A DNA stretch of 64,000 bases from a virus. Each line of letters opens with the position of its first letter. Position 1 is the stretch's first letter. The notes under the pieces were generated by a model, which was not told the origin of the DNA, made no database searches, and was given only the letters and a program-made list of their open reading frames with translations. Of the stretch, positions 39,499 through 61,044 are shown piece after piece. The position numbers and the translations under genes are program-made. The stretch covers positions 24,082-88,081 of the IMG/VR virus record IMGVR_UViG_3300044732_003010; one strand, written 5' to 3'.

Positions 39499-39897
39499 AT
39501 GATTAACTGGAATCTAGGAAGACAATTAGCCATTGAGTCTTTTAATGAAATGGTGGGCGAATTTGCCCAAGAGATTAACTTTCAGATAAAAGATACTAAA
39601 TGGAACTGGCCACGGGAGACTGTACGAAAAAATGGCGGTGTAGTTGGCTCACCCCGGGACATTGTAGATACAGGTGAGCTAAAAAATAGCCAATTTATTG
39701 AAGATGTATCAGATACCTATAAAGTAATCGGGTACACGGCTGATCATGCCGCTCTTGTCCATGAAGGGTATCAAATAGAGCGTAACGATGGGACGGTGAC
39801 AGATGTTCCCGCCCGCCCATTTATCGACACGGCTATAGAAGACTATAATCCAATTGAGGCTTATAGTGAAATCTTAAAGGAAAAATTAAATGAGTGA
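39499..39897 (+). CDS. HK97 gp10-like neck/head-closure protein
   Basis: 132 residues. SPRDIVDTGELKNSQFIEDV, YKVIGYTADHAALVHEGYQI, ARPFIDTAIEDY match the gp10-like neck family that joins head and tail (DTG.L..S, Y.A..HEG, RPF...A). First gene of the tail operon. It overlaps the next gene by 8 bases. Confidence 0.7.
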   Translation: MINWNLGRQLAIESFNEMVGEFAQEINFQIKDTKWNWPRETVRKNGGVVGSPRDIVDTGELKNSQFIEDVSDTYKVIGYTADHAALVHEGYQIERNDGTVTDVPARPFIDTAIEDYNPIEAYSEILKEKLNE

Positions 39898-40401: not shown

Positions 40402-41133
40402 ATGTCGAATCAAATTCTAGAGTTAAATCGGAGTGACAACCTCACCCCTAGCCGTGATACGCAATTTTTTATTTCTGGTGCTTACGGATTTGGACAAGAA
40501 CCTTCCACACGAGTAGCCGATTTAGGTGGTGCAATCGTCTTAGGTGATACCACTCTTACCGTGGCGACTGGGGGTTTTGGCCGAATTTTATATGCTGGCA
40601 CTTTAATTTATGTGGGGACTGCCGGTGATTATGTGGTCGTCCGAACAAAAACGACGACAGCAACCCAGACAGCAATCCAGATCGAACCTTCCAAAATTGC
40701 TGCTACCCTTGCTACTCCCGCTCAAAAATGCACAATTAAATCTTGGGTTCCTTTTTTGAGCGCCAAGACCTTTAACGTTGACACCTCCTCTACTGAGGTT
40801 ACTGATTCCGTCTTTGGTGAAATGGCGGTGGAGAAATTTATCTCTGAGATCATGAGTACTGGGTCGGTATCGGGTCCGCTTGTATTTGGTGATCCTGGAT
40901 ATGAAATCGTAAAGGCCGCAGAGCAAAAAGGTGAGCGAATTTACCTCGAAATTGTCTATATGGGACAGCGCGGAGGTTTAGGGTTTCAGACAAATGTTAG
41001 CCAAAATGTTAGTGGTGAAAAAGGTAATTTCCTACAAGGAAACGTAACTCTAACTATTAGTGGCAATGTGTTTGACATTAAACCGATGGCAACGTCGCCA
41101 TTCTCTCCTAATGTAGCTGATGACCTCAATTAA
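40402..41133 (+). CDS. Major tail (tube) protein
   Basis: 243 residues from MSNQILELNRSDN (ATG 40402; 40393 also possible). Gly/Thr/Val-rich beta composition, GGAIVLGDTTLTVATGGFGR, and ending in 'FLQGNVTLTISGNVF' type strands of tube proteins. Order neck, terminator, tube, chaperone, tape measure is the standard siphovirus tail layout. Confidence 0.65.
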   Translation: MSNQILELNRSDNLTPSRDTQFFISGAYGFGQEPSTRVADLGGAIVLGDTTLTVATGGFGRILYAGTLIYVGTAGDYVVVRTKTTTATQTAIQIEPSKIAATLATPAQKCTIKSWVPFLSAKTFNVDTSSTEVTDSVFGEMAVEKFISEIMSTGSVSGPLVFGDPGYEIVKAAEQKGERIYLEIVYMGQRGGLGFQTNVSQNVSGEKGNFLQGNVTLTISGNVFDIKPMATSPFSPNVADDLN

Positions 41134-41401
41134 AATAGTTAAACTCCTTGTCGATGAAGACCAAGAGGTAATGTTAGTCAATTCTAGAATAATCAATAAT
41201 TACCTCTGGTTTTCTTTCGGTACGTTTGATCGAGAAATAAGTCAACAAGAAAAGATATTAATTGAACCACCAGACGGAACAAAAAACCAAGAAAGAATAC
41301 AGGTATCTGTGATCATTGATCCTCTGTGGCTCAATACTGAACAAAGTGCAAAAAGAAATCAAAAGGTAAAAATAAATGGCGAAGTTAAGCGTATTGGGTA
41401 A
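41120..41401 (+). CDS. Small tail-operon protein
   Basis: 93 residues: MTSIKIVKLLVDEDQEVMLV, then acidic and beta-like (FGTFDREISQQEKILIEPPD). It overlaps the tube gene by 14 bases and the chaperone gene by 26. It may be a tail-tube accessory. No family is recognised. Confidence 0.4.
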   Translation: MTSIKIVKLLVDEDQEVMLVNSRIINNYLWFSFGTFDREISQQEKILIEPPDGTKNQERIQVSVIIDPLWLNTEQSAKRNQKVKINGEVKRIG

Positions 41402-42158
41402 ATTGAAGTTTAATGAAACATTCTTTTTCCCTTTAAAAAAAGAATGGATTTGTTACATTGAAGACAATGATGCTTTATTAGAAAAGATAGATACAATTGC
41501 CACTGAAGAAAATGGGGAAATTGGGATTAAGTTTTTAAAACGATACGGGATTAATCCAAAGGAAAATGAAACAGTCAAGGAATACTTAGAGGCACGGGAA
41601 AAAGCTGACAAAGCTTATCTTGAGAAAATTAAAGCTATCGGGCAAAAAACGGGACTATCCACTGCTGAAATTGAAGGAGTAGTAGTTAACGACGGTTCGA
41701 TCCGAGAACGAATTGAACAGGTCATGGTTGATGCCCTTGACGGGGTAAAATCTGACAGCGTAGAACAAAAAGTAGAAACCGCCGCTATCGTGCAGCAATC
41801 AATTTTAAGCAACCGTAAAAAAACAAGAGAACTAACAAAAGAATCTATAGAACTTGTAGAGCCTTATCTCGATGAATTAAACGCTTTATTTAAGGATCGG
41901 GAAACAACCTATGAAACTTACAATAGAGCCTTGTTAGCTAACTTTCTAGGTAGTCCTCGACGGGTAGTTAAACTTAAAGATAAATCTTCTGTTGATTTCA
42001 CCATACAAGACATTAATGATATGTCTCAATTTATGGTAATAAAACTCTATCAAGACTATCTCTGGCAAGACATAACCCAGTGGCAAAACCCAGAAACTGA
42101 GAAACTGGAAGAAAAACCAGAATCAGAACCAACGGAGGACGACGAAAAAAACGAATAG
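41376..42158 (+). CDS. Tail assembly chaperone (short form)
   Basis: 260 residues, helical and acidic at the end (ESEPTEDDEKNE), in the gpG position before the tape measure. It ends at TAG 42156. A classical -1 slippery heptamer A_AAA_AAC (42146-42152) lies just before the stop, giving the gpGT-like fusion listed next. These chaperones bind the tape measure during tube assembly. Confidence 0.65.
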   Translation: MAKLSVLGKLKFNETFFFPLKKEWICYIEDNDALLEKIDTIATEENGEIGIKFLKRYGINPKENETVKEYLEAREKADKAYLEKIKAIGQKTGLSTAEIEGVVVNDGSIRERIEQVMVDALDGVKSDSVEQKVETAAIVQQSILSNRKKTRELTKESIELVEPYLDELNALFKDRETTYETYNRALLANFLGSPRRVVKLKDKSSVDFTIQDINDMSQFMVIKLYQDYLWQDITQWQNPETEKLEEKPESEPTEDDEKNE

Positions 42159-42604
42159 ATGACGCAATTAATGCACGGTTAGAGGCAATCGCTAACCCCA
42201 TTAATTGGGAAGAAATCTATTACAAATGGTGTGCATGGGGATTATCTATCGAGGAGTGGGAAGATTGGCCAGACTGGTTAATCCTGAAAAAATATTCAGG
42301 GATTCAAAAAGTCAAATGTGAAGAAATTAATTCACTATCAGGTACGGTTAGTCAGATTGCTGCCATGGTTCACGCCTACCTAATAGCACAATCTAAAGAA
42401 AGTTCTAAGTCACAAAGTCTTAATCCTAGTGATTTTCTGCCTTACCAGTTTAAAGAAAATAAAAAATATTTTCTTGATCAAGAAACCGCTCAAATCCTGT
42501 TAGAAGCTATGCAAGCCGGCCAAGTGCCAGTCTTCGCCACTCAGATAATAGTCGATTGCGGACTATACGACGAAATAATTCAATTAGTAGGGGAGAAAAG
42601 CTAA
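41376..42604 (+). CDS. Tail assembly chaperone, -1 frameshift fusion
   Basis: If a -1 shift happens at A_AAA_AAC (42146-42152), translation continues at 42152 in an open frame (RIDDAINARLEAIANPINWE ... WCAWGLSIEEWEDWPDWLIL) to the TAA at 42602-42604, giving about 409 residues. The downstream frame lacks its own strong start until ATG 42365. This gpG/gpGT arrangement before the tape measure is universal in siphoviruses. The fused domain would bridge chaperone and tape measure. Confidence 0.7.
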
Positions 42605-45600
42605 TGTCTTTATCACTTGGTACTTTAGAAATCGGTCTAGGGCTAAATACAGCCCAATATGATAGCGGCATCAAATCGGCTAAAGACCAGCTTTCTTCCC
42701 TAGAGCGTCGTGTCACTAAACTTGGCACGACTCCACTAAAAATTAAAGTTAGCGTCGATGACCGTCAGCTTTATGGGCTAAATAGTCATTTACTTTTAAA
42801 AAGAGTTGACCTTAAAAAGACAGTTGATTTTTATAAAGCAAATCCTATTAAAGTATTTGCTGAAGATGACGCATTAGTTTCTCTTAACCAAGAGTTGCGT
42901 GAATTAAAAAAAACATCAGTAGAGATAAGAACACCTTCTAAAATTGTTGTTGAGCATCGGTTTTCTGGGTATCAAGATCGGGTAGAGAAAGCGATTGATC
43001 GATCTACTTCTCGAATATCGTCAGAAATTAGAATATCCTCTAGCAAAGGAGGCGTTGCAGGCGCAATTGGCCGTATTTTAATGTCTCCTTTTAAACTTGC
43101 GGGACGAGTTCTTGATGACATGGTTACTGGTTATTTCGAGAAACTAGGTCAATCCTTTGCAGAAGAGATAGGCGTAACATCAGCTAAAAATACAGCTAAA
43201 AAAATTAAATCCGCAATAACAAAAATTGATGAACAATTAATTGGTAAAAACCAAGTATATGAAACGTTTTTATCGGAATTTTTTAGGTCAGGAAGTATAG
43301 AAAAAGCTACACAAGCTTCTTTTCCTCGCACCGAAGTAGGTAAAACTACAGAAAGACTTCAAAAATTACAAGAAATCGCATTAGTGCCTGCAAATAAACC
43401 ACTGGAGCGTCTGAGATTAATTAAAGAAAATTCTGAGTTAAATAAAATTTATCAACAAGTATTACAAAAAATAGAATCGGAAAATCCTGGTATTAAGCCG
43501 CGAGAAGCGGGGAAAAAAGCCATGGCTCAGTTTTTAGTTGACGCACAGCCACAAACACAAGTATTAAAAGGATTTGTTAATTCTTTTATTCAAGAAATGG
43601 CTCCTTTATTAAAATTTATACAAGGGATGAGGTCTTATAGAACATCAGTAGAAAGCCAAAAATATTACAACGAAAGAAAAGCAGGTTTTCCATTACTAAG
43701 AGAGGGGGAAGATGTAGTTAGTGTCATTGGAGGAGCGCAATTTAAGGGAGGTCAGGGTGGCAGACAAGTTGTTCAATCAATTGAATTATTAGCTCCTAAT
43801 AAACGATTTATTCCTGTAGAAAATCCTGAAACTGATACTGATAAACAAAACCCTAATCTTTTAGAAAAAATGATTAGGGATAAAATAACTGAGATTGCCC
43901 CTGATTTTGCTGCTGGAGAAACCATAGATACAGCAATTAACGCTTTTCGGCAGGTAGTAAACGCTATTAACCCGTTCGGTTATTCTACGGCCGCAGCGCA
44001 AGCAATAGCCAATACCAGATTAGCTGAAGAACAGGGTAAAAAAGGCAGTGTTGTTAGCTATTCTTTAGGAGGAGCAGATAACCTTCAGTATGCTCAAACA
44101 GCATCATATTTAGGAATGCAGCCACACGCATTAGCCATGGCTTATCCCTTTCTTAATTTTACTCAAAATACACCTAAAGGATTTAATGCAGCATTACTGA
44201 GTGGCGACCCTCTCGGTTTTGCCAAGTTATTAGGAATTGGAGTCAATACTAACCAATTCCGCTCGATTGAAAGTAATACTCCTTTTGGGCTATCAAATCA
44301 CCACCAAAAACATTTATTTAAAGAACAACCTTTTCTAGATTTATTTTATAAGACTATTAATGCTGAACAGCCAGATATGACCCCAGGTCAACAATCAAAA
44401 GTTGTTCATGCCGGCGATAAGCTATATGAAGTATTGGGATCGACTCTACAATTAAAGTCACTTAAAGAAACAGGGGAATTTGATAAGACTCTACCTTATC
44501 ATAGATTCTTGCAAGGATACAGCAGTGGCAGTCCTAACGTAAGCGTAGAAGGATTTATTGCAAAGTTTTTTGAAGGGCTTCGTCTTATATCTTCTTTTGA
44601 TACAAAAGAATTACAGCCTGTGTCACAAGCTTTAAAAAGTTTAATGGAACCTTTAATTCCATTTATAGCTAAAAAATTTAGACAAGGGGGTGCAAATTTA
44701 CCAGAAAATCCTCAAGATTTTGCCGGGTATCAAAAATATCAACAAGAAGCAAAAAGTATAAACAGAGCATTATTAGAATTTAAATCAGGAAAACTTGCTG
44801 ATACTCCTAGCTGGTATGCTGGAAATTTAGAGCCTAATGAAGTTAAAAGACGGACAGAAAAGATTAGAACCGAAACAATACCGTGGTTTACTTCTGAAGA
44901 AAGTACGTTTGGGCAAACTTACACAAAAAAAATTGTTGAAGCATACAAAAAAATAGCTGATGTTGCTGATGAATTTATTAAGACAGGAGGAAAACTATCG
45001 CAAAAAACCAAAGACAGTATAAAAACTTTTGAAGTTGATGAGTTTTCTGGGGAATTAGCAAGTTTTTTAAATACACGCCTTGACACATCAACACTACCAA
45101 AAGAAGAAGAAGTAAGACAATTACAGGTTACTGTTCCTGAAATTTTTCTGAAAAAGCAATCAGCTATTTTAGCTTACAACAAACTTCTTAACGCCGTAGG
45201 TAAAGAAATTCTTCCTGGTATTTCTGAAATCAAAAAAATTGGTGCAGGAATGTCTGGAGCCGTTGCTCTTCTTTCAGATAATCTTGTTTATAAAACTGAT
45301 CTTGACCCAATAGGAGCGACAAAAATTGCGTCAGAAGATGAAATTAAGGCTTATGAGAAATTACAAGGTCGTTTGTCTCCTTTATTGTACAAAGCAGTTC
45401 CAGGTCAGGCTTTAATTACTGAAAGAACACAAGGTCGTCCTTTAAAAGAAATACTTGATCGAATTGCACGTCCTTACAAAGAAATTCAGCAAAAAATACA
45501 GGAAGCTAATAAAGCATTAGAGTTAGCCATAGACAACAAAGATGCGACTAAAATCAAAGAGCTAAAAGTATTAACCAAAGAATTACAATCGTCTGCCAAA

Positions 45601-48600
45601 AAAGAACACAATCGTTTTAATAAGGCCGCATCTATTCTATATCAACAAGTAGGACAACTTGGAGCATCCTTACAGGAAATGGGTGTTGTTCATAATGATT
45701 TAGCTGCAGCAAATGTATTTTTTGCACAAGGTGGAATTACTTCAATTGATCTCGGAAATGCAAAGGTTGATCCGACTAGCAGTGATAAATTTAACGATAA
45801 AATTACTACTATTCAGCGAGCAATTATTGATTCTAGCTATTACGGATTGATGGATCCTTTTAAAATAATAGGCGCAGTTCAATCTGGCTACTCAAAACCT
45901 TTTGCTACTCAAGTTTCTGATTCTAATGCCAGACAAAAATCAGCCATTATCCCTCAGAAAAGAGAAATTAATGAAACTCTTCTTTCCCCTGTAGTAACAG
46001 GAAAAGCAATTTCATTAGGTTCATATACACCAACTTTATTAAAGCAAATCGTTGGTGATTTTTCTTTGCCTACTAAAGAAACTGTTTTCGCAAAAATAGA
46101 TACTCCCGAACAAAAAAAAGAACAACCAATTCTAGATAATCAACCACAAAAACTTAATGATTTAGCTGCTACAGCTAAATCAAAATTAGAAGATGTTTTA
46201 GCTTCACGACTTGGTACTCCTGATAAATCGGGAGAAATTCAGCACCTTAGCGGGAATGAAGATTTTGCAGAATTACTACAATTAACTCTTGTAAGAGAAT
46301 TAAAAACAGCAAGCCTTCTACTTTCAAAAGCTTTCCGAGACACATCTCTTGACGTTATTAAATTTGGCCAGGTTGTTTTTACAGTCTTAAAAGCGATCGA
46401 GCGTCCAGTAATGGCTTTACCTGGTGCTGCAATAGGTAAAAAAGCTATTCAGGTAGGGGGAACGGCTGCTATGGGAGCCGCCGCTCTCCACGCTCTCCCG
46501 ATGGGGCTAGATGCCACGGTTGTCAATACTATGCGAGATATTCTTGCAGGGGCGATGAGTGCTGGCGGTCGGGGAATGGTCCAAGCCGTAGCCACACAAA
46601 TGACTCAAGCTTTTAGCGGCTTGCCGTTTGGAGTGGGACAACAGCTAACGGAAGCAGTAGTGCAGCTTGTAACCGAAATAACTAACGGCACTATCAGCGT
46701 CCTATCGCAGGGGGGAGCAGTTGCTGGATCGGCGTTAATGGCCGGTGAAGGTGTTAAGAGACTCTTAGGAGCGGCTACCAGTAATGTTCCTAAATTAATT
46801 AGCAAAGAAGAACAGCAAAAAATTGAGGGTAAAACCCAGAAAGCATTAAAAGCGGCAAAGAATAAAGCTGATTCTTTGATTACCACTGAAATAACTCCAT
46901 ATTTCGATGAGAGAGTCTTCCCAGCAAGTAACCCTATTCCAGCTAACATCAAGGCAATTAACCCAGAATATTACACGGTAAAACAATTACGAGGATTGGC
47001 CAGAAATCAGGGAATTGACGTACCAGCATCAGGAGCAGGAGCCAGAAAAGAGGAAATATGGAAATCGTTGACTGAAAAATTTAACCCTGATCAGCTAACT
47101 CGACTTTTACTAACAACAAAAGCAAGTGATAGAACAAAATTAGGGAAAAAAGAACTTAGTGGATTCCAGGTTGCATCTACAGAAATTCCTGCTGATTTTA
47201 CTAAGAGAATTGGCATTGGCATAAAAAACATTGGTCAAGAAATTAATACTACTAAAGATATCCAATCTTTAGAACGTCTTTATTTTCAATTAGAAAAAGT
47301 TAAAAAGGGAATTACAGCGTTAAGAGCTAATCCTGAATTTAACACAACAAATATTAATAAATCATTAAGTGGCTTTTTACAGTCAGTTGATAATTTACAG
47401 ACACAAATTCTTGCTAAAGGTGGTTTGGAGTCAGGGAAAAATCTCAACAAAGGTTTAGCTAAAGGATTAAAAGATACTAGCGCAAGCGACATCGCCTATC
47501 AAAACGCTCTTAAAATAGTAGATCAAATTGATAAAGGGCTGGGAAATGCTTCACCATCTTGGAAGGGGGAAGAATCGGGAGAAAATTTTATTAAAGGTGT
47601 GGCAATTGGAATAGAAAAAGGAATTTCTTCTTTTGATTTTCAGAGTTTAGCTAGTGAAGTTGTTAAAGGATTTGAATCAGGGTTGTCACTTGGCGATATT
47701 GAAAAAATTATTCAATCTTATTTTGATGTAAATATTCCTAACTTAAAAGATTTAGCTGTTGAAGCGAAAATGATGGGGTGGGAAGGTAAACCAATTGACG
47801 GGCTACTAGAAAAAAAATTAAGCAAATTCCCTCTATCAAAAACTTTTACTCCTGTTGAACCCCCAAAAAATAATATTATTTCTTATCCTACCCCTACACG
47901 ATTAATTGAATCAAACTTACCATCGGAAAATGCGTTAGCTTCTGCTAGTATTAGACTCAAGCAATTATCTAATTTTTACGCTGGACATAAAACAGCTTTT
48001 GCAAATCTCAAAGCTATTTTAACACAAGGAATAGACCCTACTTTTAATCAATGGAGTTTAAGAAGAGACAGATTTGATTTTGAAAAACAAGTTTTCAAAG
48101 AACCTGTTGCTTATAGCGCAATTAACTCTTTTTCCGAACCGATTAAAGGAAATGATTACTATGGCGATGCTGAAATAATGCTCGATATAGCAAAAATTGC
48201 CAACCGATCAACATTTACTAGAGGTGACTCTGGTGCTTTTTGGAGAAATCCAAGCGAGATAATAACAAATCCTTTGTCTAGCTTTACACCAGACCAATAC
48301 AATCGCAGACCTAATGAGATACTTGAATACCTTGAGGTTCAAACTACTGGCAAAATTGATCCGTCTGATTTTTTAGGGATTAATTTAGGCGATATAGAAG
48401 AAAAGTACAATATTTATGGACGCAAACTCATTGAAGTTATTGCATCTTCTTTAAGTGCTGGCGTTCCAGTATTCGCAAAAAACCTTGAAGCGATTAGTTC
48501 GATGTTTTCCAGTGAGGGCAGACAGTCTGGGTTAAATTATATCAAGGGGTTAAATATTGGATTACAAAATAATAATAGCGAAAAATACGCTTTAGATGTT

Positions 48601-51600
48601 GCGATTGGAATTATCGACGCAACAAATAAAGGGCTGGGAAATGCTTCACCGTCTAAAAAAGCGATGAAAGCAATGCGGTTTTTTTATGAAGGATTAGCGT
48701 TAGGGGCGCGTCATATTCGCTTCGGATTAAGGCTAGAGACTCAATTCGATAAAGAAGTAAGCGATTTTACTTTCTTTGTCGGGACGAGGTCAAAAGAAGC
48801 CCGAAAAGCGATCCTTCAAGCTGTTAAAGAAATGGTAAACCAAGGGGAACGCCTAGCGGCTATTAACGAGATTCAAGGCTCGATGAACACGGGAATTTTC
48901 GCTTCTCCCCGCGCTTTTCAAGTGATGAAGCGAGCTACCGTCATCGCTCGTCCAAAAACAACACGAGAAGAAATTCTTGACGACTGGAATAAAAAACGAG
49001 ACAACATTTTCAACGCTCTCGATAGCATTGAAAAAGCGGGCGTTTCTAGTGGTTTTACAAACGGTATCGTAAGCGGACTAAAAGCTGTTATTGCCCAAGC
49101 GGACGGATTTATTAATTTCCTCTCGGTTGGTGGCAAAGCACTCAGAACTCTCGACCAAGAACTTAATGCCGCTACAGGAGGTATGATTAATCTTCGTAAA
49201 GGTGCTATAGCGGCAATTGGGGGATTTGCTCTTTTCAAAGGAGCAGAATTTTTATTACGACCTCTATTTTTTGCTATTTACGATATTCCTTTTAGGATTC
49301 AACAAGCTGTTACTGATTCTTTACTTGCTTTTACTGAGTTACAAAGAATTAAATTAAATTTAAATCTTGCTGGTGTAGGCAATGTAGAACAATCTCTTGA
49401 CGCTTTAGTGGCAAGGGCTGACAAATTAGGAATATCCTTTAAAGAATCCGCTATTGCTTATAGCAGATTCAAATTAATTACTACCAATTCTCCACTACAA
49501 GCGCAGGCAGATAATATTTTTGAAGGATTCCAAGAGGCATTATCGGCGCGACAAACCAATGCCCAACAGCAAGCTGAATCTTTTAGAGCTATCGGGCAAA
49601 TAGCCTCTAAAGCTGTTGTTTCCGTTGAAGAATTCACGCAGCAATTGAGCGAGTCAGGAGGATTAAACGACGCTTTAAACGTGGCCGCCCGATCAATGGG
49701 GTTAACCACTGCTCAATTTTATCAACAAGCATCAGCAGGCAATCTTTTGGTACAAGATGTTTTACCTCGATTAGCGGCCGAATATGAACGGATGAGTGCC
49801 GGAGGTCTTTCTCTCTCTACTAAAACTTTACAATCGGAAATCTCTCGATTCCAGAACAATACCGAACAACTTCAAATGCAGTTAGGGGAAAAAATTGGAG
49901 TAGTCGCTTACCCTGCTTTACAGGCATTAAATGCCGTCTTGAGTACCTTAAATGACAATCTAGGGACGGTGGCATCAGTGGGAGCCGCCGGGTTACTGTC
50001 AGTCATGGGATTCTTAGGAAAATCAGTCATGCAATTTGCGGCAGCGGGTCGGTTAGGAGCCGTTGCCAGTGCTGCTATGAGTGCATCCTTACAATCTGCC
50101 GGAGTAGCGTCTCTATCTACAGCTACAGCCATGGGTAGATTAAAAGTATCTATAAACCTTGCTACTTTAGCAGGAATAGGATTAATTAAAGCATTGATTA
50201 TTCCTACTGCGGTGATAACTGGTATTCAATTTGTTTATAACGCATTAAATGCTGGTAGCGAAGAACTAAAACAAGCTGTAAGAACCCTAGAAGAGTCTAA
50301 AAAAGCTCTTGATGCTTGGCAAAACAAAACCGATAACAGTAATCGCAAAGGCCTAACAAGCTTTTTGCCTGACATGGAATTGTCTGGAGGAGAAAAGTTT
50401 TTTAATGTTATAACATTCGGGATTGTTTATAATTCTAAATGGCTTATGTCACTATTAGAATTACGACAAGGACTAGAAAACATTGATAAATCTCTGGCTA
50501 CTGGAGTTGGGAATCTTAAAGAATATCAAAAAACTTTATCTAATTTTTCAGGTAGCAAGCAATTTTCATCTGAATTACAAGAAATCAGAAATAATTTAGC
50601 TTTAGTCAGAGCAGAAAGAACAATTGCAAGCGCAAAAGGAAACGACCGATCTGTAGCTGAATTTAACCGGCGAGAGCAGGATTTAATGAAGCAAGAACAG
50701 GAGCTAATTAATAAACAGTTAGGTCCCGTTGGGTCAAGAATTACTGCCGACCTTCAACAATATGAGATGGCGTTAGCATCGTTAGAGCAAAGCTTTAAGA
50801 ATAGAGATATAACTGACATTGCTTACGCGCAACGTAAAAAAGACCTCGTGACTATAATTGGTCAACTAAAAAAAGCGGAACAAGATTATCTACAAGTCTT
50901 GAAAGATCAAGAAAAAGAATATAGAAAATTACAAGTTGCCTTTGATCTTGCTATAAGAACAAGAGCTAATGCCAATTTTGCTAATGAAGGAAATAGTTTA
51001 AGTCGTTCAATTGGATTAAATCAACAATTTGCATCAGGGGAAATTAATGAATTTCAGTTTAATGTTAAAGTTCGAGAAGAAAGCTTACAGACTGCTAAAG
51101 AGCGTATTGCCACTTTAGGCAATACAGCTAACTCTATCTCTAATACTTTAAACGAAAGGCTATCTAAATCTGCCAATAAAGTTTTAAGCACTTACTTTAA
51201 AGAAGATCTAAAACAGCTAAATGTAGCGAGCTTTGGTGGAGCAATTGCTGGAAATTTACTCTCTCCTGATGCTATTCAGCAAATAATGGATCAGTATGAA
51301 TCTGACCTAAAAGATAACGCTGCTTTAAGATCTATTTTAAATCAGGCTAAAGAATACGCAACTGCTCGACGAGATATTTTAAACACTGAGAAAGAAATTC
51401 AGCAAATTAGTCGAGAGATTATTGTCGAAAGAAAGAAAAGACAAATACAAGAAAAACAGGCTAGTAAAGAAATTGTTAAAGCAGAACAACTTACTAATCT
51501 AGCCAATAAAACCTCCTCCAGTCAAAATATTGGCTACGGACTAGAGCAAACCAAAATAAACTTGGCAGCTCTTTATAATCAATTAGCCTTAGAGCAAGAA

Positions 51601-54600
51601 AAATTAGTATTAAACGTAGATGATCCGTTAACGGTCAAAACAGCTATTGCAAATATCACACAGCAAATAGCTGAAACCGAACTATCTTTAAGAGATCAGC
51701 AAGAGCAACTACAATACTATTACCGCAACCTTGGCCGTCAGATAATCGACTTTAATCGTCAGATTGAAGATTATAGAAGACAGATTGAAGATGCTCAACT
51801 GTCAGCTTTTAGAGGAAATCGTTCTCTATCTGAAAGTTACACTGATTTAGTCAGGGAACTCGACAAGAAACTCTTAAATGCCCAAAATCAGCTACTGGAT
51901 GCGACCGATAGAATCAGGGTACAGCAAGTTAAAAACCGTTTATTAATACCCGGTACAAGCGACGCTGGTAAAGAATTAGGTGACATTTTCCTAGAATTTG
52001 TCCAGGGACAAGCTGACCTTGCCAGTCGCGGTCGCACCTTCCAATCCCGAACCGAGGAGATAGAAACTTCCTATATCTCTACTCTAAGAAATATTCGTAA
52101 CTTACAAGAGCAACAGCAAGACGCTGAAAGAAGCCGACTAAGAACGATTGAGGATATTAAACGGACTCAAGAAAACCTTAATCGCACCTTAGCTGACTTA
52201 ATCCGACAAACCAATAAAGAATTAGGCTTTATTCCCCAATCAATCAAGGATATTGTCACAAATCTTAATACACTTCCAGAACCAATTAAATTAATCAATT
52301 CTGAGTTAGTGGCTATTCCCCCAAATATTAAGACTTCTGGAGAAGACTTAATAAAAAGTATAGAAGAAACTGCGGAGGCAATTAGAAAAGCTAAGGAAGG
52401 TTTGATACTACCAGCACCTAGTAATTTCACCCCTGCTCCTGTGTGGAATGGGGGAGGGGTTTTACCGCCGCCACCGCCACAGTCGTCTTCAATTCCCAAA
52501 GGGTTAACACCACGCGGTCGAGAATTATCTCAATATTTAAACAATCCTCACGTCAAGGCCTTTCTTGATATTATTGCTTACGCAGAAGGTACTGCCAATA
52601 TGCCAAATAAGGGATATAACACCCTTTTTGGCCATGGACAATTTAGTTCTTTTGCAGACCATCCACGCCAAAGAATTCCGTTTGGATCAACCAGTTCATC
52701 GGCATCTGGAAGATACCAGATCATGGATTTTACATGGAATGAAGAAAAAGCAAAATTAGGATTAAAAGATTTTTCTCCTGTCTCTCAAGATTTAGTCGCA
52801 TTAAGTCGTATTTTAATGAGAGGTGGATTAGACGAGCTTCTTAAGGGAGATATTCGTGGGGCAATTAACGCAACCCGCAAAGAATGGGCATCTTTCCCAG
52901 GGGCTAATTACCCAGGGCAAGGCATGAAACGGATGGAAGACCTGTTAAGGGTTTACGATCAGTCTTTACGAAAATACCAACCAAATGCCCCTCGTACTCA
53001 ATCCGAACTAGACGCACTGCGATATGACGGCAATCCTGCTAACAGCGGAGCATCAAACCGTATTCGACAAATCAGAAGAAATCAAGGCGGTTTACCCACT
53101 CCATCAACTTCCACCCCTAACCCTTCTCCATCAGTTCAGCAACAAATCACCAACAGATTACCAAAAAATATTCAATCTGTTTTAGTTCAAGAAGTTGGCG
53201 GAAAAACTGTATATTCTAAAAATGCTCAAACACCTCCAGCGTCACCAGCTAGTACAATTAAAGTTATTATTGCTGATTTGATTGCCAAAGAAATAACAAG
53301 CGGAAAACTTTCCTTAAAAGATGCTATCGCCATAAAATTGCCTTTGGTTGATCCACACGGACAATTAAAAGCCAATCAAGTTAAAACAGTTGAACAGCTA
53401 GTACAGTTAATGCTAGAAAAGTCAGATAATACGGCAACTAATGTTTTAATTGATCGGCTAGGTGGGCTAACCAAAGCTACAGAATTAGCCAGAAAAGAAG
53501 GTTATAAAAACACTACTATTTCTAGGTATTTAAATATACCAGGCAGTGGAACTCCAAACATTTCAACAGCACAAGACGTAACGTTAGCTATGCAGTCTTT
53601 AATTAAAAATCAAAATCCTGCAAGTCAATTAGCTGAACAATCTCTAAGACAAACAAGAAATTTTAAGTATAATAATGAAATCGGCGGAAAAATTGGAAAT
53701 AACTCTAAAGTTATTGGTAATGTTGGACTGGTAAACATTAATGGGAAAGAATATATTGTAACTGCTTATGCAAACATTAACGGCAATCAACTAAATAATC
53801 GAAAAATAATAACTAATGCTACTAATGCAATTAGCCAATCCATTAAAGACTCCACCCCTAACCCTTCTCCTGCCCGTGTTTTAACAAAAGAAGAAACAAA
53901 AGAAGGAAAAGGTGGACCAGAATTTAGTAGTCCTCCACCCATAGCTCAGTTACCGACTTTACCTAATCAAAACCGAGATAATTTCTGGGATGCCGATTTA
54001 CCACCGGTTCTTAAAGACAATCCGATTAACTTCCAGAGTCCTAATTTGCCTCCCGTTCCCAATCTTCCTACGGGTAATCTTGGCGCAGCGGCTGATCAAA
54101 TTCGCAACGCTGAAACAGCTAATCAAAACGCTGAGGAGTTTTCAAGACGACTAGAAGAGCAACAAAATCTAAACAAGGCTCTTGACAGATCAATGAAATT
54201 TAGACGGCAGCAAGAGGAAGATGCCCGTGCATTAGAACGTACTTTAAGAAATGCTTCCGAAAATGTCGCTGATTTGACTATCAACTCTAAAGGGTATCTG
54301 ACAGTACAAGAAGAAATTAATAAGAGTGCTACAGAAGTCTCTCGTCAATATCGCTCTCAAATTGAATCACTAGAAGACCAGCGACGGACTTTACTTTTAA
54401 ATGCTGAGGCTCAACAAAAATACAGCGACGCGATAAAAGAAATCTTAGGAGAATTTCAAAGAAAAGGTATAGCTCTCCCCCCTGAATTTACCAAAGAAAT
54501 GATAGATAGTATTGACGCTTTAGCTAAACGCGCTGAATTAGCTAAAGAACAGGTAGCAATTCTTGATCAAGCGATTGAACAATTAGGCAAGAATCAGGGA

Positions 54601-55752
54601 GTAGCCAGCTTAGAAGCATCATTTAGAAAAACCAGAGATACAGTCAGGAGTATTCGTGATCGGTTAAATGATTTAACTATCCAAAGAATGAAGTTAGAGA
54701 ATCAAGCCCGACCGACTTTATTTGATGATTCTGCTATCCTTGCCGAACGTATTAGCCTACAAAAAGAAAAAGAGGAACTAGAGGATTATTTAGAACCTTA
54801 CAAAGACTTACCACAATACGCTGAATTTGTGGCTAATATTCGCTCGGAATGGGAAAAACTTGCAGAATTAAGATTAAAACGAGCGGAGTTAAACGCTTCC
54901 CCAAATCGTGGCGCAGCTGAAAGCTTTTTCTCTGATATTAGAGAAGGAAAAGGAATAGGATCGGCTTTTAGTAGTCTTGGATTAAATATCATGACAAAAT
55001 TTGTTGAGGGTATTACTAAGCCCGCTATCGATGCTTTAACTTCTGCTATCGATGGATTTACAAAGCCGATTACTCAGGCATTTGAATCAGTATTTAATGC
55101 AATCATCGGTCCAGTAGGTAACTTTTTCACTAATGCCCTCAGTAGCATTTTTAAACCAGTAGGTAACATCTTTTCCTCTATCTTTGGGGGCGGTGGCGGA
55201 GGTGGCTTATTTAATGGCTTACTTAGCGGAATAACAGGGATTTTTAGTGGAGGGATTGGGGGACTTGGTTCGATTGGATCACTTGGTAGTATAGGAGCCT
55301 CTAGTTTTGCTTCTGCTCCGGCTTCTGCCTTTTCTCTAGGTACAGGATTCAGCTTATTTAGTGATGGCGGGAAAGTTGGAGATGCCAATGTTCCGATAGA
55401 GAAAAATATCATTTCAGCTTTTCAGCGCGAACGAGCAATGTCGGGAGGCCGAAAACCTCGCTTGATCGTAGCTAATGAAGACGAATTGGTTCTTAACCCT
55501 AAAGAAACAGAAGCATATCTAGAGTACAGAAATAATGCTCCTATTAAGAACTATGCTAATGGAGGATTTGTCGGGGGTAAGCCTAATTACTCCACAACCT
55601 CAAATAACAATAGCTCTAATCAGTCTTTGGTAATTAATAACACCAATAACGTGACTGTAGAATCACGGAATGATATGGGGTATAGTTTGAATCAATTGAA
55701 AGAACGGGAAAATGCACAAAATGAACGAACTAAAAAACGATTCTTTGGGTAA
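42604..55752 (+). CDS. Tape measure protein with multiple enzyme-like domains
   Basis: 4382 residues from ATG 42604 (TAATG overlap with the chaperone stop). It has the typical start (SLGTLEIGLGLNTAQYDSGI) and a tape-measure core at ~2240-2420. Inserted domains: alpha/beta-hydrolase-like SYSLGGA (Ser487); kinase-like GAGMSGAV (~880), HNDLAAANV (Asp1032), DLG (Asp1049); SAP-like helix pair (~1453-1490); ADP-ribosyltransferase-like YGDAEIMLD (~1853), STFTRGDSG (1869-1877) and EYLEVQ (1908-1913); lambda R-type transglycosylase (3300-3450; AYAEGT Glu3328, SASGRYQ 3366-3372, KDFSP); class A beta-lactamase-like STIK (3550-3553), SDN (3607-3609), KIG (3696-3698), lacking the ExxLN glutamate. It ends in a Gly run and acidic tail. 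It sets tail length and probably enters the cell. Confidence 0.85.
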   Translation: MSLSLGTLEIGLGLNTAQYDSGIKSAKDQLSSLERRVTKLGTTPLKIKVSVDDRQLYGLNSHLLLKRVDLKKTVDFYKANPIKVFAEDDALVSLNQELRELKKTSVEIRTPSKIVVEHRFSGYQDRVEKAIDRSTSRISSEIRISSSKGGVAGAIGRILMSPFKLAGRVLDDMVTGYFEKLGQSFAEEIGVTSAKNTAKKIKSAITKIDEQLIGKNQVYETFLSEFFRSGSIEKATQASFPRTEVGKTTERLQKLQEIALVPANKPLERLRLIKENSELNKIYQQVLQKIESENPGIKPREAGKKAMAQFLVDAQPQTQVLKGFVNSFIQEMAPLLKFIQGMRSYRTSVESQKYYNERKAGFPLLREGEDVVSVIGGAQFKGGQGGRQVVQSIELLAPNKRFIPVENPETDTDKQNPNLLEKMIRDKITEIAPDFAAGETIDTAINAFRQVVNAINPFGYSTAAAQAIANTRLAEEQGKKGSVVSYSLGGADNLQYAQTASYLGMQPHALAMAYPFLNFTQNTPKGFNAALLSGDPLGFAKLLGIGVNTNQFRSIESNTPFGLSNHHQKHLFKEQPFLDLFYKTINAEQPDMTPGQQSKVVHAGDKLYEVLGSTLQLKSLKETGEFDKTLPYHRFLQGYSSGSPNVSVEGFIAKFFEGLRLISSFDTKELQPVSQALKSLMEPLIPFIAKKFRQGGANLPENPQDFAGYQKYQQEAKSINRALLEFKSGKLADTPSWYAGNLEPNEVKRRTEKIRTETIPWFTSEESTFGQTYTKKIVEAYKKIADVADEFIKTGGKLSQKTKDSIKTFEVDEFSGELASFLNTRLDTSTLPKEEEVRQLQVTVPEIFLKKQSAILAYNKLLNAVGKEILPGISEIKKIGAGMSGAVALLSDNLVYKTDLDPIGATKIASEDEIKAYEKLQGRLSPLLYKAVPGQALITERTQGRPLKEILDRIARPYKEIQQKIQEANKALELAIDNKDATKIKELKVLTKELQSSAKKEHNRFNKAASILYQQVGQLGASLQEMGVVHNDLAAANVFFAQGGITSIDLGNAKVDPTSSDKFNDKITTIQRAIIDSSYYGLMDPFKIIGAVQSGYSKPFATQVSDSNARQKSAIIPQKREINETLLSPVVTGKAISLGSYTPTLLKQIVGDFSLPTKETVFAKIDTPEQKKEQPILDNQPQKLNDLAATAKSKLEDVLASRLGTPDKSGEIQHLSGNEDFAELLQLTLVRELKTASLLLSKAFRDTSLDVIKFGQVVFTVLKAIERPVMALPGAAIGKKAIQVGGTAAMGAAALHALPMGLDATVVNTMRDILAGAMSAGGRGMVQAVATQMTQAFSGLPFGVGQQLTEAVVQLVTEITNGTISVLSQGGAVAGSALMAGEGVKRLLGAATSNVPKLISKEEQQKIEGKTQKALKAAKNKADSLITTEITPYFDERVFPASNPIPANIKAINPEYYTVKQLRGLARNQGIDVPASGAGARKEEIWKSLTEKFNPDQLTRLLLTTKASDRTKLGKKELSGFQVASTEIPADFTKRIGIGIKNIGQEINTTKDIQSLERLYFQLEKVKKGITALRANPEFNTTNINKSLSGFLQSVDNLQTQILAKGGLESGKNLNKGLAKGLKDTSASDIAYQNALKIVDQIDKGLGNASPSWKGEESGENFIKGVAIGIEKGISSFDFQSLASEVVKGFESGLSLGDIEKIIQSYFDVNIPNLKDLAVEAKMMGWEGKPIDGLLEKKLSKFPLSKTFTPVEPPKNNIISYPTPTRLIESNLPSENALASASIRLKQLSNFYAGHKTAFANLKAILTQGIDPTFNQWSLRRDRFDFEKQVFKEPVAYSAINSFSEPIKGNDYYGDAEIMLDIAKIANRSTFTRGDSGAFWRNPSEIITNPLSSFTPDQYNRRPNEILEYLEVQTTGKIDPSDFLGINLGDIEEKYNIYGRKLIEVIASSLSAGVPVFAKNLEAISSMFSSEGRQSGLNYIKGLNIGLQNNNSEKYALDVAIGIIDATNKGLGNASPSKKAMKAMRFFYEGLALGARHIRFGLRLETQFDKEVSDFTFFVGTRSKEARKAILQAVKEMVNQGERLAAINEIQGSMNTGIFASPRAFQVMKRATVIARPKTTREEILDDWNKKRDNIFNALDSIEKAGVSSGFTNGIVSGLKAVIAQADGFINFLSVGGKALRTLDQELNAATGGMINLRKGAIAAIGGFALFKGAEFLLRPLFFAIYDIPFRIQQAVTDSLLAFTELQRIKLNLNLAGVGNVEQSLDALVARADKLGISFKESAIAYSRFKLITTNSPLQAQADNIFEGFQEALSARQTNAQQQAESFRAIGQIASKAVVSVEEFTQQLSESGGLNDALNVAARSMGLTTAQFYQQASAGNLLVQDVLPRLAAEYERMSAGGLSLSTKTLQSEISRFQNNTEQLQMQLGEKIGVVAYPALQALNAVLSTLNDNLGTVASVGAAGLLSVMGFLGKSVMQFAAAGRLGAVASAAMSASLQSAGVASLSTATAMGRLKVSINLATLAGIGLIKALIIPTAVITGIQFVYNALNAGSEELKQAVRTLEESKKALDAWQNKTDNSNRKGLTSFLPDMELSGGEKFFNVITFGIVYNSKWLMSLLELRQGLENIDKSLATGVGNLKEYQKTLSNFSGSKQFSSELQEIRNNLALVRAERTIASAKGNDRSVAEFNRREQDLMKQEQELINKQLGPVGSRITADLQQYEMALASLEQSFKNRDITDIAYAQRKKDLVTIIGQLKKAEQDYLQVLKDQEKEYRKLQVAFDLAIRTRANANFANEGNSLSRSIGLNQQFASGEINEFQFNVKVREESLQTAKERIATLGNTANSISNTLNERLSKSANKVLSTYFKEDLKQLNVASFGGAIAGNLLSPDAIQQIMDQYESDLKDNAALRSILNQAKEYATARRDILNTEKEIQQISREIIVERKKRQIQEKQASKEIVKAEQLTNLANKTSSSQNIGYGLEQTKINLAALYNQLALEQEKLVLNVDDPLTVKTAIANITQQIAETELSLRDQQEQLQYYYRNLGRQIIDFNRQIEDYRRQIEDAQLSAFRGNRSLSESYTDLVRELDKKLLNAQNQLLDATDRIRVQQVKNRLLIPGTSDAGKELGDIFLEFVQGQADLASRGRTFQSRTEEIETSYISTLRNIRNLQEQQQDAERSRLRTIEDIKRTQENLNRTLADLIRQTNKELGFIPQSIKDIVTNLNTLPEPIKLINSELVAIPPNIKTSGEDLIKSIEETAEAIRKAKEGLILPAPSNFTPAPVWNGGGVLPPPPPQSSSIPKGLTPRGRELSQYLNNPHVKAFLDIIAYAEGTANMPNKGYNTLFGHGQFSSFADHPRQRIPFGSTSSSASGRYQIMDFTWNEEKAKLGLKDFSPVSQDLVALSRILMRGGLDELLKGDIRGAINATRKEWASFPGANYPGQGMKRMEDLLRVYDQSLRKYQPNAPRTQSELDALRYDGNPANSGASNRIRQIRRNQGGLPTPSTSTPNPSPSVQQQITNRLPKNIQSVLVQEVGGKTVYSKNAQTPPASPASTIKVIIADLIAKEITSGKLSLKDAIAIKLPLVDPHGQLKANQVKTVEQLVQLMLEKSDNTATNVLIDRLGGLTKATELARKEGYKNTTISRYLNIPGSGTPNISTAQDVTLAMQSLIKNQNPASQLAEQSLRQTRNFKYNNEIGGKIGNNSKVIGNVGLVNINGKEYIVTAYANINGNQLNNRKIITNATNAISQSIKDSTPNPSPARVLTKEETKEGKGGPEFSSPPPIAQLPTLPNQNRDNFWDADLPPVLKDNPINFQSPNLPPVPNLPTGNLGAAADQIRNAETANQNAEEFSRRLEEQQNLNKALDRSMKFRRQQEEDARALERTLRNASENVADLTINSKGYLTVQEEINKSATEVSRQYRSQIESLEDQRRTLLLNAEAQQKYSDAIKEILGEFQRKGIALPPEFTKEMIDSIDALAKRAELAKEQVAILDQAIEQLGKNQGVASLEASFRKTRDTVRSIRDRLNDLTIQRMKLENQARPTLFDDSAILAERISLQKEKEELEDYLEPYKDLPQYAEFVANIRSEWEKLAELRLKRAELNASPNRGAAESFFSDIREGKGIGSAFSSLGLNIMTKFVEGITKPAIDALTSAIDGFTKPITQAFESVFNAIIGPVGNFFTNALSSIFKPVGNIFSSIFGGGGGGGLFNGLLSGITGIFSGGIGGLGSIGSLGSIGASSFASAPASAFSLGTGFSLFSDGGKVGDANVPIEKNIISAFQRERAMSGGRKPRLIVANEDELVLNPKETEAYLEYRNNAPIKNYANGGFVGGKPNYSTTSNNNSSNQSLVINNTNNVTVESRNDMGYSLNQLKERENAQNERTKKRFFG

Positions 55753-56152
55753 TCAAATTGTTACCGAAGCTCTTGAATGGCTCGGTACTCCTTGGTTTCA
55801 TGGTCAATCGCTTAAAGGGATTGGAACCGATTGTGTAGGATTTATCGCTGGCGTAGGGATTGAAGTCGGATTCTTGCCCCATGATTTCATTATTGAAAAC
55901 TACGAACGGATTCCCCGGAACAATTTCTTAGTGAGATTTATCGAGGGTATCTTGACAAGAGTAGAAGGTAGTCCAGATAAAGGAGATATTTTAGTCTTCC
56001 GTAAATCAGGTATAAATGGTCATGTGGGGATTTATCTGGGAGATGGGGAGTATATTCATGCTGACTCAATAAATGGCGTGATGAAGACCTATATTCATGA
56101 ATACCCGCCTGCACTAATTTATCGAGTACCTACTTTAGGAGTGGTAAAATAA
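55712..56152 (+). CDS. NlpC/P60 tail-tip peptidase
   Basis: 146 residues (overlaps the tape measure by 41 bases). LGTPWFHGQSLKGIGTDCVG places the nucleophile Cys41; GHVGIYLGDGEYIHADS supplies His104 and a downstream His. This is an NlpC/P60-type peptidase found at tail tips, where it cuts peptidoglycan during DNA entry. Normal length. Confidence 0.8.
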   Translation: MHKMNELKNDSLGNQIVTEALEWLGTPWFHGQSLKGIGTDCVGFIAGVGIEVGFLPHDFIIENYERIPRNNFLVRFIEGILTRVEGSPDKGDILVFRKSGINGHVGIYLGDGEYIHADSINGVMKTYIHEYPPALIYRVPTLGVVK

Positions 56153-56548: not shown

Positions 56549-56614
56549 TATGAGCCAAGTTATGAGCCTTTATGAGCCAAGTTATGAGCCTTTATGAGCC
56601 AAGTTATGAGCCTT
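56549..56614 (+). repeat. Three tandem 22-bp units around the Rha-like start
   Basis: Three exact copies of TATGAGCCAAGTTATGAGCC plus TT (56549-56570, 56571-56592, 56593-56614). Each contains two ATGs. The 22-bp unit is not a multiple of three, so gain or loss of a copy changes which ATG leads into the frame. Confidence 0.8.
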
Positions 56615-56929
56615 CTGCTGACGAGTTACAAAATTATAGTATCACAGAATGATTGTCTTGTCCTTGATTCTCGTTTGATTGCTGGTGAGTTGGGGATTGA
56701 ACACTGCGCCTTGCGTCAAACCATAGAAAAATACATTAACGAGATTCAAGAGTTTGGAGTTGTCGCATTTCAAATGTCGAAACCGCTAGAAGGCTCTAGC
56801 GGCGGTCGTCCTGAGCGTTACTGCTACCTGAATGAAGAGCAAGCAACTTTAGTGCCGGTCTGTGAACTGGCACTTTTTGTGTTAGCTATCCCGACAACAC
56901 CCTTGATTAGTTATCGGGTAAACTTCTAA
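56594..56929 (+). CDS. Rha-family phage antirepressor-like protein
   Basis: 111 residues. LDSRLIAGELGIEHCALRQT, IEKYINEIQEFGVVAFQMSK, GGRPERYCYLNEEQATLVPV match the phage Rha regulatory domain. The usual C-terminal extension is replaced by about 20 unrelated hydrophobic residues, so it may be truncated or altered at the 3' end. The ATG lies in the third tandem unit. Its end overlaps the minus-strand RHH gene. Confidence 0.6.
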   Translation: MSQVMSLLLTSYKIIVSQNDCLVLDSRLIAGELGIEHCALRQTIEKYINEIQEFGVVAFQMSKPLEGSSGGRPERYCYLNEEQATLVPVCELALFVLAIPTTPLISYRVNF

Positions 56930-57531: not shown

Positions 57532-59235
57532 ATGAAAGAAGGTCGATCCATAAAAGCCATGCTAGTCAAGAAAACTATTGCGGACATAAAACTTAACCTT
57601 AATGCCACTCAGCGAACCTATATTGATCGCTGGATGGACGAGCTTAAAGCTGTCTGGAATTTTGGGCTAGAGCTACTGATGGAATATCAGCTTAATAAGT
57701 ATTACGACGAGCTTGAGAAAATAACAGGAAAACCAGTTAAACGGGTTAAACGTCGTTTAGCTAAAAAAACTCAATTTATTGACTCCCTAAAAAACGAAAA
57801 AGGTAAATCCCTTCCTAATCCCCTTTACACCCCTAAATATTTAACTGGCAAGCAAAAAGTTAAAATACAGATAGCTAGAGAAAAAAGACAAAAAGCAGGT
57901 TACTCTTATCCTGTCCATATCCCTATTCAACGGCGGTTAAAATCTGATAATTATTTTGGGTTATGTGGCTGTATTACAAAAGAAAAATGTCCAGAACTAT
58001 GCAAGGACATCCCTATGGCTTTTGTCCAAGGGGTTTTAAAAAAGCTTGCTGATTCCTGGAAAGCTTACACCAAACTCGATAAAAAGAATTTAGACAGAAA
58101 ACTTCCTAGATTTAAAAGAAAAGAAGATAAAATTAAATCTCTTTATTCTGAGATCAGCAATTGCGCTGTTAGAAAAGGGGATAAAATATCTATAGGTAGC
58201 TGTGGCAAAACATTAGGCGATTTAAAGATTGTCAACAATACTTTAGATATTCGGTGGGGTGACAGAAAAGCCTCTACCGTATCAATTATCAAATACCCAT
58301 CGGGATATTATCTAAGTCTATTTGGTGAATTTGAAGTAGATGATCTACCTGATTCCGATAAAGCGATCGGTATTGACGTAGGACTAGAATATATAATTAG
58401 TACCAGCGACGGCCAACAAATTGACCCGCCCAAATACTATAGAAAACAGCAAAAAAGACTAGCAAAACTGCAAAGAAAAACCGCTAGACAGTATAAAGCA
58501 GGGGAAAATAAAGACGGCAAAAATCTCGCTAAAACTCGTGCTAAAGTTGCCAAAACTCACGAAAAAATAGCAAGACAACGCAAAGGATTTAATCATGCCC
58601 TAAGTACCGATATTGCTAGAAATCATGGCGCTGTAGCCGTAGAAGACCTCAACTTAAAGAATTTAATGCGACGACCTAAACCGAAAAAAAGAGAAGACGG
58701 TAAAGGCTACGAACGCAATAACGCGAAAGCCAAAGGGGGATTAAATAAATCCTTTGCTGATGCTAGTTTAGGACAATTAACTGGTTTTCTTGAAACGAAA
58801 ATGAAAACTCCCAACCGAGAGTTTATCAAAGTTCAACCAGCCTATACTAGCCAAGATTGTCCTCGCTGTGGCAATCGTGTTAAAAAAAGTTTATCAACCC
58901 GCACCCATAAATGTTTAGAGTGTGGATGTACTTTACCCAGAGATGTGGCCGCCGCAATCAACATCTTAGGGAAAGCAGACTTCGTAAGAAGCTACCCGGC
59001 TTGTACCGGGGAAGTTAAGCCTCTGAAGGATTTCGATAAGGAATCAGCGCAGGAGGAATTACTTAGCAAGTCCAGCCGATTGTTACTCGGCGAAGAAACC
59101 CTCGAAACCTTACTGGTTTTGACCTCCGAGCCAGTGACACCCAAGAAAAAAACAAGGAAAAGGTCGATCCACTCGCAACCCGCGCAAACAGTCAACGCAG
59201 GCTATACGCAGCTTACACTCTGGGAGACTGGGTAA
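57532..59235 (+). CDS. TnpB-like/Cas12 (type V-U-like) RNA-guided nuclease
   Basis: 567 residues (or 558 from ATG 57559). RuvC-I GIDVGLEY with Asp282, RuvC-II VAVEDLNLKNL with Glu371, a four-Cys zinc finger (CPRCG at 443-447; CLECGC at 461-466) and RuvC-III PRDVAAAINIL with Asp471: all catalytic residues present. The N-terminal ~200 residues are basic and helical (guide-RNA and DNA binding). Its length is that of small type V-U effectors, several of which occur in cyanobacteria. A four-unit array starts on its stop codon; no transposase TnpA or IS end is visible. The CCCGG/CCGGG hairpin at about 58997-59010 recalls tnpB 3' ends overlapping omega RNA. Confidence 0.85.
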   Translation: MKEGRSIKAMLVKKTIADIKLNLNATQRTYIDRWMDELKAVWNFGLELLMEYQLNKYYDELEKITGKPVKRVKRRLAKKTQFIDSLKNEKGKSLPNPLYTPKYLTGKQKVKIQIAREKRQKAGYSYPVHIPIQRRLKSDNYFGLCGCITKEKCPELCKDIPMAFVQGVLKKLADSWKAYTKLDKKNLDRKLPRFKRKEDKIKSLYSEISNCAVRKGDKISIGSCGKTLGDLKIVNNTLDIRWGDRKASTVSIIKYPSGYYLSLFGEFEVDDLPDSDKAIGIDVGLEYIISTSDGQQIDPPKYYRKQQKRLAKLQRKTARQYKAGENKDGKNLAKTRAKVAKTHEKIARQRKGFNHALSTDIARNHGAVAVEDLNLKNLMRRPKPKKREDGKGYERNNAKAKGGLNKSFADASLGQLTGFLETKMKTPNREFIKVQPAYTSQDCPRCGNRVKKSLSTRTHKCLECGCTLPRDVAAAINILGKADFVRSYPACTGEVKPLKDFDKESAQEELLSKSSRLLLGEETLETLLVLTSEPVTPKKKTRKRSIHSQPAQTVNAGYTQLTLWETG

Positions 59236-60555: not shown

Positions 60556-60571
60556 CTTAAAATCAAACATA

Positions 60572-61039: not shown

Positions 61040-61044
61040 GTCAA

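Follow-up and report, generated by a model that had tools for sequence, protein, structure and literature searches.

A giant phage tape measure protein whose cargo cassettes are apparently exchanged in frame at a repeated linker

The 4382-aa open reading frame (ORF) in the window (the whole stretch of 64,000 nucleotides analysed here, taken from a virus record of 88,081 bases) is a real tape measure protein, and comparison with its relatives indicates that they swap cargo cassettes in frame, by addition, removal and replacement, at a 69-aa linker repeat. This exchange at the linker repeats is the main feature of the gene, and one beyond what the earlier note on this DNA could see. We consider it fairly likely that the gene encodes the tape measure of a tailed phage, probably a cyanobacterial one, doubling as a polyvalent cargo protein with linker-exchanged cassettes that would presumably be delivered to the host.

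The identification as a tape measure, already proposed in the earlier note, is borne out by profile matches and by the tail-gene neighbours. Pfam TMP_3 matches the protein with E 1.6e-12 (48 bits, where the cut-off is 41) and a PHROG tape measure family (PHROG 2335) with E 1.5e-19 over residues 2159-2860; the TIGR02675 score is 20.3 bits, for a cut-off of 21.35. The ATG start is immediately preceded by GGGGAG, which resembles a ribosome-binding site, and the gene sits among tail and head-tail genes, with Neck1 at 39499, a minor tail protein at 55712 and a tail protein at 61152; the genes at 41120-42158, upstream of the tape gene, gave no PHROG match. Hydrophobic segments exceeding 1.4 on the Kyte-Doolittle scale (19-residue windows) occur in the tape protein only at residues 2200-2533. 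The N-terminal block of the protein is 98% identical in relatives even where the following ~1000 residues are unrelated (blastp). The gene, its constant parts and its neighbours are as follows (window coordinates, strand, feature, basis).

42604..55752, + strand: tape measure protein gene (P0001), open for 4382 codons from ATG
42604..43002, + strand: conserved N-terminal block (residues 1-133), from comparison of relatives
49201..50202, + strand: four hydrophobic segments (residues 2200-2533), Kyte-Doolittle
49351..49881, + strand: TMP_3 tape measure domain (residues 2250-2426), Pfam
53899..55752, + strand: conserved C-terminal part (residues 3766-4382), from comparison of relatives
39499..39897, + strand: tail completion/Neck1 protein gene, upstream of the tape gene, phrog_5 E 3.2e-9
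55712..56152, + strand: minor tail protein gene, directly downstream of the tape gene, phrog_329 E 1.6e-14

Relatives were collected by scans of IMG/VR, one of which contributed the best 80 of its 302 matches; after contained copies had been dropped, 82 ORFs together with the window protein made a set of 83. An iterative HMM found 68 copies of the 69-residue linker in 47 of these ORFs. The linkers of the window protein and the segments that they delimit are as follows.

46153..47397, + strand: conserved block with a SAP/Rho_N-like motif at 1458-1490 (residues 1184-1598), from relatives, the motif by eye
47404..47610, + strand: linker repeat 1 (residues 1601-1669), iterative HMM
47531..47555, + strand: 25-nt tract in linker 1, identical to the tract in linker 2, probable cross-over site, DNA comparison
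47611..48501, + strand: cargo cassette, orphan, ART-like by motif only (residues 1670-1966; H1795, Y1837 and E1905 proposed)
48502..48705, + strand: linker repeat 2 (residues 1967-2034), iterative HMM
48626..48650, + strand: 25-nt tract in linker 2, identical to the tract in linker 1, DNA comparison

The junctions at the linkers carry the evidence for exchange. Sixty-one linkers with 110 aa on either side were compared, the remaining 7 of the 68 being dropped for short flanks. When the flanks were clustered, 13 left types and 14 right types were combined in 27 distinct left/right pairs, 13 of which recurred in at least two contigs and 14 of which were seen a single time; because some IMG/VR contigs share a metagenome (e.g. 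3300042406 and 3300044620), the contigs cannot all be counted as independent. Six different right sides follow the end of the SAP block, and five follow that of the ART-like cassette. The linker DNA itself is mosaic in two relatives. In the L008 linker, the left half matches window linker 1 at 95.0% identity and the right half matches window linker 2 at 98.9%, compared with 50.6% (left) and 35.6% (right) for the wrong halves; in L018, the respective identities to linkers 1 and 2 are 91.1% and 96.7%. In both chimeras, the switch falls around an exact 25-nt tract common to the two window linkers, and such chimeric linkers are the expected residue of linker-linker recombination with loss of the ART-like cassette. 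Exact tracts of 8-29 nt are shared by the linkers of three other relatives (seven pairs).

The same mobility is apparent when the cassettes are set against the tape domain. Among 18 near-identical tape cores, every one of the six last-cassette states (five cassettes, or none) occurs. In a tree of 22 cores, with the last-cassette labels set by hand and the bootstrap not settled, the last cassette has to change 11 times, and its labels cluster barely better than shuffled ones do (22 of 200 shuffles were as low). Recent in-frame domain exchange in a tape measure protein is directly visible here.

The cassettes found between linkers in the 83-ORF set are the ART-like orphan (12 ORFs), D7 (8), a ParB/DdrB-like cassette (7) and C5 (6), together with the rarer C3 (4), ART-PolyVal (2) and a GNAT-like one (1); the names ART-like and GNAT-like were given by eye, and D7, C5 and C3 are of unknown type. 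In a linker-delimited slot of one relative, the curated Pfam family ART-PolyVal is matched with E 5e-20, and the ParB/DdrB-like cassette matches a portal-fused domain family (E 3.5e-60) as well as a family of 3925-residue phage proteins. C3 and C5 had no phage match, and PADLOC returned weak matches only (E 0.003-0.04). The possible GNAT acetyltransferase cassette (D9), read by eye at L111:7562-8008 (DARSKKLWERYGF), is joined to a lead-in of ~80 residues shared with the ART-like cassette; searches of Pfam, PHROG and PDB for the GNAT-like reading of D9 gave nothing.

The part of the tape measure that starts with TMP_3 is nearly constant in length while cassettes come and go. In 20 complete ORFs, 644-3392 residues precede TMP_3 and 1717-2288 extend from its start onward, some tens of residues before the start codon being included in most ORFs, which were measured from stop to stop. 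The separation of a ruler part from a cargo part can now be tested on the tail lengths of near-identical phages that are one cassette apart. A distant phage tape measure (L143:5642-15433) has other segments ahead of TMP_3, in place of the hydrolase and the kinase described below, one metallopeptidase-like with HELRH (M91-like, E 0.006) and one Rho_N-like (E 4e-4), both under the Pfam cut-offs.

Four enzyme-like domains of the window protein could be assigned from profiles, alignments or predicted folds.

43672..44355, + strand: alpha/beta-hydrolase domain (residues 357-584; S487, D535, H567), alignment of versions and profile
45208..45912, + strand: Bud32/RIO-like kinase domain (residues 869-1103; K897, H1030, D1032, N1037, D1049), HMM, profile and fold
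52540..52950, + strand: lambda-R-type lysozyme/transglycosylase (residues 3313-3449, E3328), PDB profile match
53179..53769, + strand: beta-lactamase/penicillin-binding-like domain (residues 3526-3722; S3550xxK, S3607DN, no Glu166), Pfam and alignment

The hydrolase-like nucleophile that the earlier note placed at Ser487 is upheld. Five hydrolase versions were aligned including that of the window, to which one is 62% and three are 17-22% identical, and the triad Ser487-Asp535-His567 falls within ten invariant columns, which include G-G, S-x-G-G, one Asp and one His. The profile built from the aligned versions matches a structure of carbohydrate esterase family 5 (CE5) with E 0.0017, followed by lipases and cutinases (E 0.07-0.7); among additional versions, matches to Pfam Cutinase (E 9e-4) and to secretory lipase (E 5e-4 and 8e-4) all stayed below the Pfam cut-offs. 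In the fold comparison, the strand order of the model is compatible with an alpha/beta-hydrolase, and the serine hydrolase FphE is matched with Z 7.5 over 94 residues. The hydrolase-kinase region had no match in 386 cyanobacterial genomes.

The kinase-like core, proposed previously from Asp1032 and Asp1049, likewise stands. Three divergent versions all keep the glycine loop, Lys897, His1030, Asp1032, Asn1037 and Asp1049, and a profile of these three matches PDB kinases with E 9e-7. Against Pfam, the isolated segment of the window gives kinase-like, RIO1 and APH matches with E 1e-4 to 9e-4, all under the cut-offs, and a Bud32 HMM gives E 1e-5, far under the cut-off of that model; kinase versions elsewhere match Pfam Pkinase above the cut-off (E 5e-9 and 1e-9). 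In the structure prediction that the earlier note had suggested as a check, the AlphaFold model of residues 335-1125 is weak overall (mean pLDDT 58), and the best fold match of the kinase is Bud32 (Z 11.6, rmsd 2.1 over 100 residues); the top 15 rows by Z in VIA-align are all Bud32/PRPK/KEOPS chains (Z 8.3-11.6), and Foldseek with the same model reaches E 0.05 at best. Catalytic residues are retained in kinase and hydrolase versions at 17-51% identity. Among ORFs that carry the N-terminal block, the hydrolase is present in 32 of 43 (the window counted) and the kinase, always accompanied by the hydrolase, in 18 of the 42 that are at least 1400 aa long; since 11 and 24 ORFs, respectively, do without them, neither domain is essential.

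On the C-terminal side of the tape domain, the assignment of a lambda R-type transglycosylase with Glu3328 is confirmed by a match to the lambda lysozyme structures 1am7/3d3d (E 6e-28), in which the SEGT/AEGT glutamate aligns with E3328. The adjoining domain, described in the earlier note as class A beta-lactamase-like, keeps this description in part. Pfam Beta-lactamase2 matches it with E 5e-25, which supports the fold, and its SxxK and SDN motifs align with those of cyanobacterial TLL2115; on inspection, it has SRYLN where ExxLN would be expected, which we take to be the Glu166 site of class A beta-lactamases, and its NCBIfam class A score, at 48.6 bits, is far short of the cut-off of 200. 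Because Glu166 is missing while SxxK and SDN are kept, this is probably a peptidoglycan domain of the penicillin-binding type. The same zone in relatives holds other cell-wall domains (M23 and SLT), which argues for reading the segment as a peptidoglycan domain and not as a resistance gene; penicillin-binding/beta-lactamase-like peptidoglycan domain is probably the better name. One segment in this zone of a relative resembles an L,D-transpeptidase by eye, with no Pfam match.

The ADP-ribosyltransferase-like and SAP-like segments match motif patterns only, and neither was confirmed. Visual inspection of the former had suggested a pattern of the H-Y-E type (GHKT, AYSA and NEILEYL); searches with residues ~1755-1960 gave no HMM, phage or plasmid match and no convincing PDB match, the AF2 model of the cassette is useless (pLDDT 33.5), and single-sequence hhalign of the cassette against eight other cassettes found nothing. 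Copies that are 98-99% identical occur in four relatives. In 19 of 386 cyanobacterial genomes, the cassette gave weak local matches (E 0.004-0.1) that we take as noise: at two of three loci inspected, the frames encode one and the same short protein, which is unrelated, and at the third a long protein that lacks supporting features. The SAP-like motif had no Pfam match. The SAP block together with linker 1 is 81-90% identical over 486 aa in four relatives, and none of 177 candidate stretches in genome contigs contained the block. Of the six domains listed in the earlier note, the hydrolase, the kinase, the lambda-R lysozyme and the beta-lactamase-like fold therefore stand, and its wider claim of several enzyme-like domains on one tape protein holds for the hydrolase, the kinase and the two cell-wall domains, the ART and SAP segments being unconfirmed. 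The other effector-type domains between linker repeats in relatives strengthen the reading as a multi-enzyme tape.

From the N- to the C-terminus, the proteins consist of the hydrolase, the kinase, the SAP-like block and one to several linker-separated cassettes, followed by the hydrophobic segments and the tape domain, exchangeable peptidoglycan enzymes and the conserved C-terminus. In the tapes of other phages, the C-terminus leaves the tail first. Combined with the domain order, an exit of this kind would bring the wall enzymes to the wall first and the cargo last, beside the DNA. Under the model that we favour, the tape would leave the tail at infection, the C-terminal enzymes would open the peptidoglycan, the hydrophobic part would assist membrane crossing, and the N-terminal cargo would enter the cytoplasm with the DNA, where it might modify host proteins, lipids or defences. 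We infer such injection of cargo activities from knowledge of tape measure and polyvalent proteins. Cassette exchange would then allow quick renewal of the injected effectors in a phage population. The stronger proposition, that the tail ruler is a recombinational effector array with constant ends, in which homologous recombination at the 69-residue linker renews the injected enzymes in frame, appears to us evenly balanced; if it is true, phages shuffle the counter-defence proteins that enter first as polymorphic toxin systems shuffle toxins. The main difficulty of the model is that several folded kinase or hydrolase copies should not fit in the lumen of the tail tube, which would require the cargo to be unfolded, located outside the lumen or cleaved off beforehand. 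No processing metallopeptidase came up when the window protein was scanned against Pfam, and the HELRH candidate is found only in the distant L143.

Other explanations of the variable region appear less probable to different degrees. The cassettes could be spacers that lengthen the tape, with decayed enzyme-like folds, so that swapping tunes tail length only. Tape measure length governs tail length in known phages, as in Hardycor1, where the excerpted report predicts a tail of ~84 nm from a tape measure of 703 aa (PMC7911831), and the relatives differ strongly in gene length, with total ORF length varying widely. However, the catalytic residues of the hydrolase and the kinase are invariant although other positions drift to 17-29% identity, the cassettes differ in fold and are not coiled coils, and the cargo side varies far more than the tape-domain side; we accordingly regard the spacer explanation as improbable. 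It is even harder to credit that linker repeats led the metagenome assembler to fuse unrelated fragments, even though all cassette-bearing relatives are metagenome contigs and their linkers have short exact tracts in common. These tracts span only 8-29 nt (eight linker pairs measured), the recurrent junctions account for 13 of 27 pairs, the diverged lineages L111, L126 and L047 have the same architecture, and a single open frame is kept across every junction, the ORFs reaching as many as 5680 codons.

Rather unlikely, in our judgement, is a third possibility, namely that the cargo works late in the producing cell, or is cleaved off before assembly, and is not injected at all. Tape genes are late genes, the lumen of the tube is too narrow for large folded domains, and other phage tape measures are known to undergo processing. 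Against this explanation, fused cargo stays in the virion unless it is cleaved, murein enzymes on the same chain are most sensible at entry, and delivery with the DNA has been proposed for polyvalent domains in the excerpted text of Iyer 2017 (PMC5512222).

The protein that we interpret as a tape with exchangeable cargo has several known counterparts. It resembles tape measures that carry domains of murein hydrolases (Pfam TMP_3, PHROG 2335; tail-lysozyme fusions) in the TMP_3 core, the hydrophobic segments, the lysozyme, M23 and SLT domains and the tail gene neighbours, but differs in that roughly half of the chain, or more, is taken by the hydrolase, the kinase and the exchangeable, linker-delimited cargo array. 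In polymorphic toxins and MuF toxins, a constant delivery part is combined with a variable effector part exchanged by recombination. The likeness to these toxins extends to the constant delivery part, the variable effectors and the recombinational exchange, whereas here several cassettes lie together between repeated linkers, with constant parts at both ends.

The polyvalent proteins, as presented in the excerpted text of Iyer 2017 (PMC5512222), include kinases, ARTs, ParB, lysozyme and rare SAP/Rho_N domains, for which co-delivery with DNA is proposed, and cassette recombination is already raised there for Verrucomicrobium loci; the word 'tape' has 0 occurrences in the text of that paper. Our protein family shares with them the many enzyme domains per chain, of kinase, ART, DdrB-like ParB, putative SAP/Rho_N and lysozyme types, with at least two conflict-type enzyme domains per chain (hydrolase, kinase and lysozyme here; ART-PolyVal and ParB-like in relatives), and the ART-PolyVal and ParB/DdrB-like cassettes belong to the polyvalent-protein repertoire of the same source. 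It differs in that the carrier is a tape measure and the swaps occur inside one ORF at a linker repeat. In addition, the polyvalent kinases described in the excerpt have an insert between the catalytic His and Asp, which the window kinase lacks, H1030-N1031-D1032 being contiguous. The Sle1/Tme tape-measure-related effectors of contractile injection systems (CIS), as outlined in the excerpted text of Nagakubo 2026 (PMC13277306), are similarly tape-measure-related chains with a variable functional domain; Sle1, an effector of a bacterial CIS, bears a single such domain, at its C-terminus, whereas here a phage tape has several N-terminal domains.

Mosaic signals in tape measures were reported by Smug 2023 (PMC10684548), where, according to the excerpted text, no genuine recent case could be confirmed. 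Our searches of the open-licence PMC literature turned up no listing in which a tape measure gene is described as having effector cassettes that can be exchanged. Such a tape joins two lines of research, on tape measure proteins and on injected polyvalent proteins. A reason for tape variation is offered by the SNIPE defence, which, as excerpted, probably works via tape measure proteins (PMC13190303).

The host is likely a cyanobacterium, although the evidence for it is weak. The tRNA-Tyr region of the window is 89.6% identical to Microcystis phages. At 60473-61117, tRNA-Tyr and tRNA-Met lie either side of an ORF, the DNA of which is 76-77% identical to 3 of 386 cyanobacterial genomes. The tape core has 22 distant loci in genome contigs, including a Crocosphaera MAG and Leptolyngbya. 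The large terminase (25256-26911, - strand) shows at most 44% identity to the best matches listed from a set of 50,697 phage records. Near the head-tail genes, a small separate protein at 38354-38989 is annotated as a kinase (phrog_18508, E 8e-75). A Rha/antirepressor-like protein is encoded amid the tail genes at 56594-56929, and a transposase ORF (57532-59235; phrog_506, E 5e-77) lies between tail genes, 1.8 kb 3' of the tape gene.
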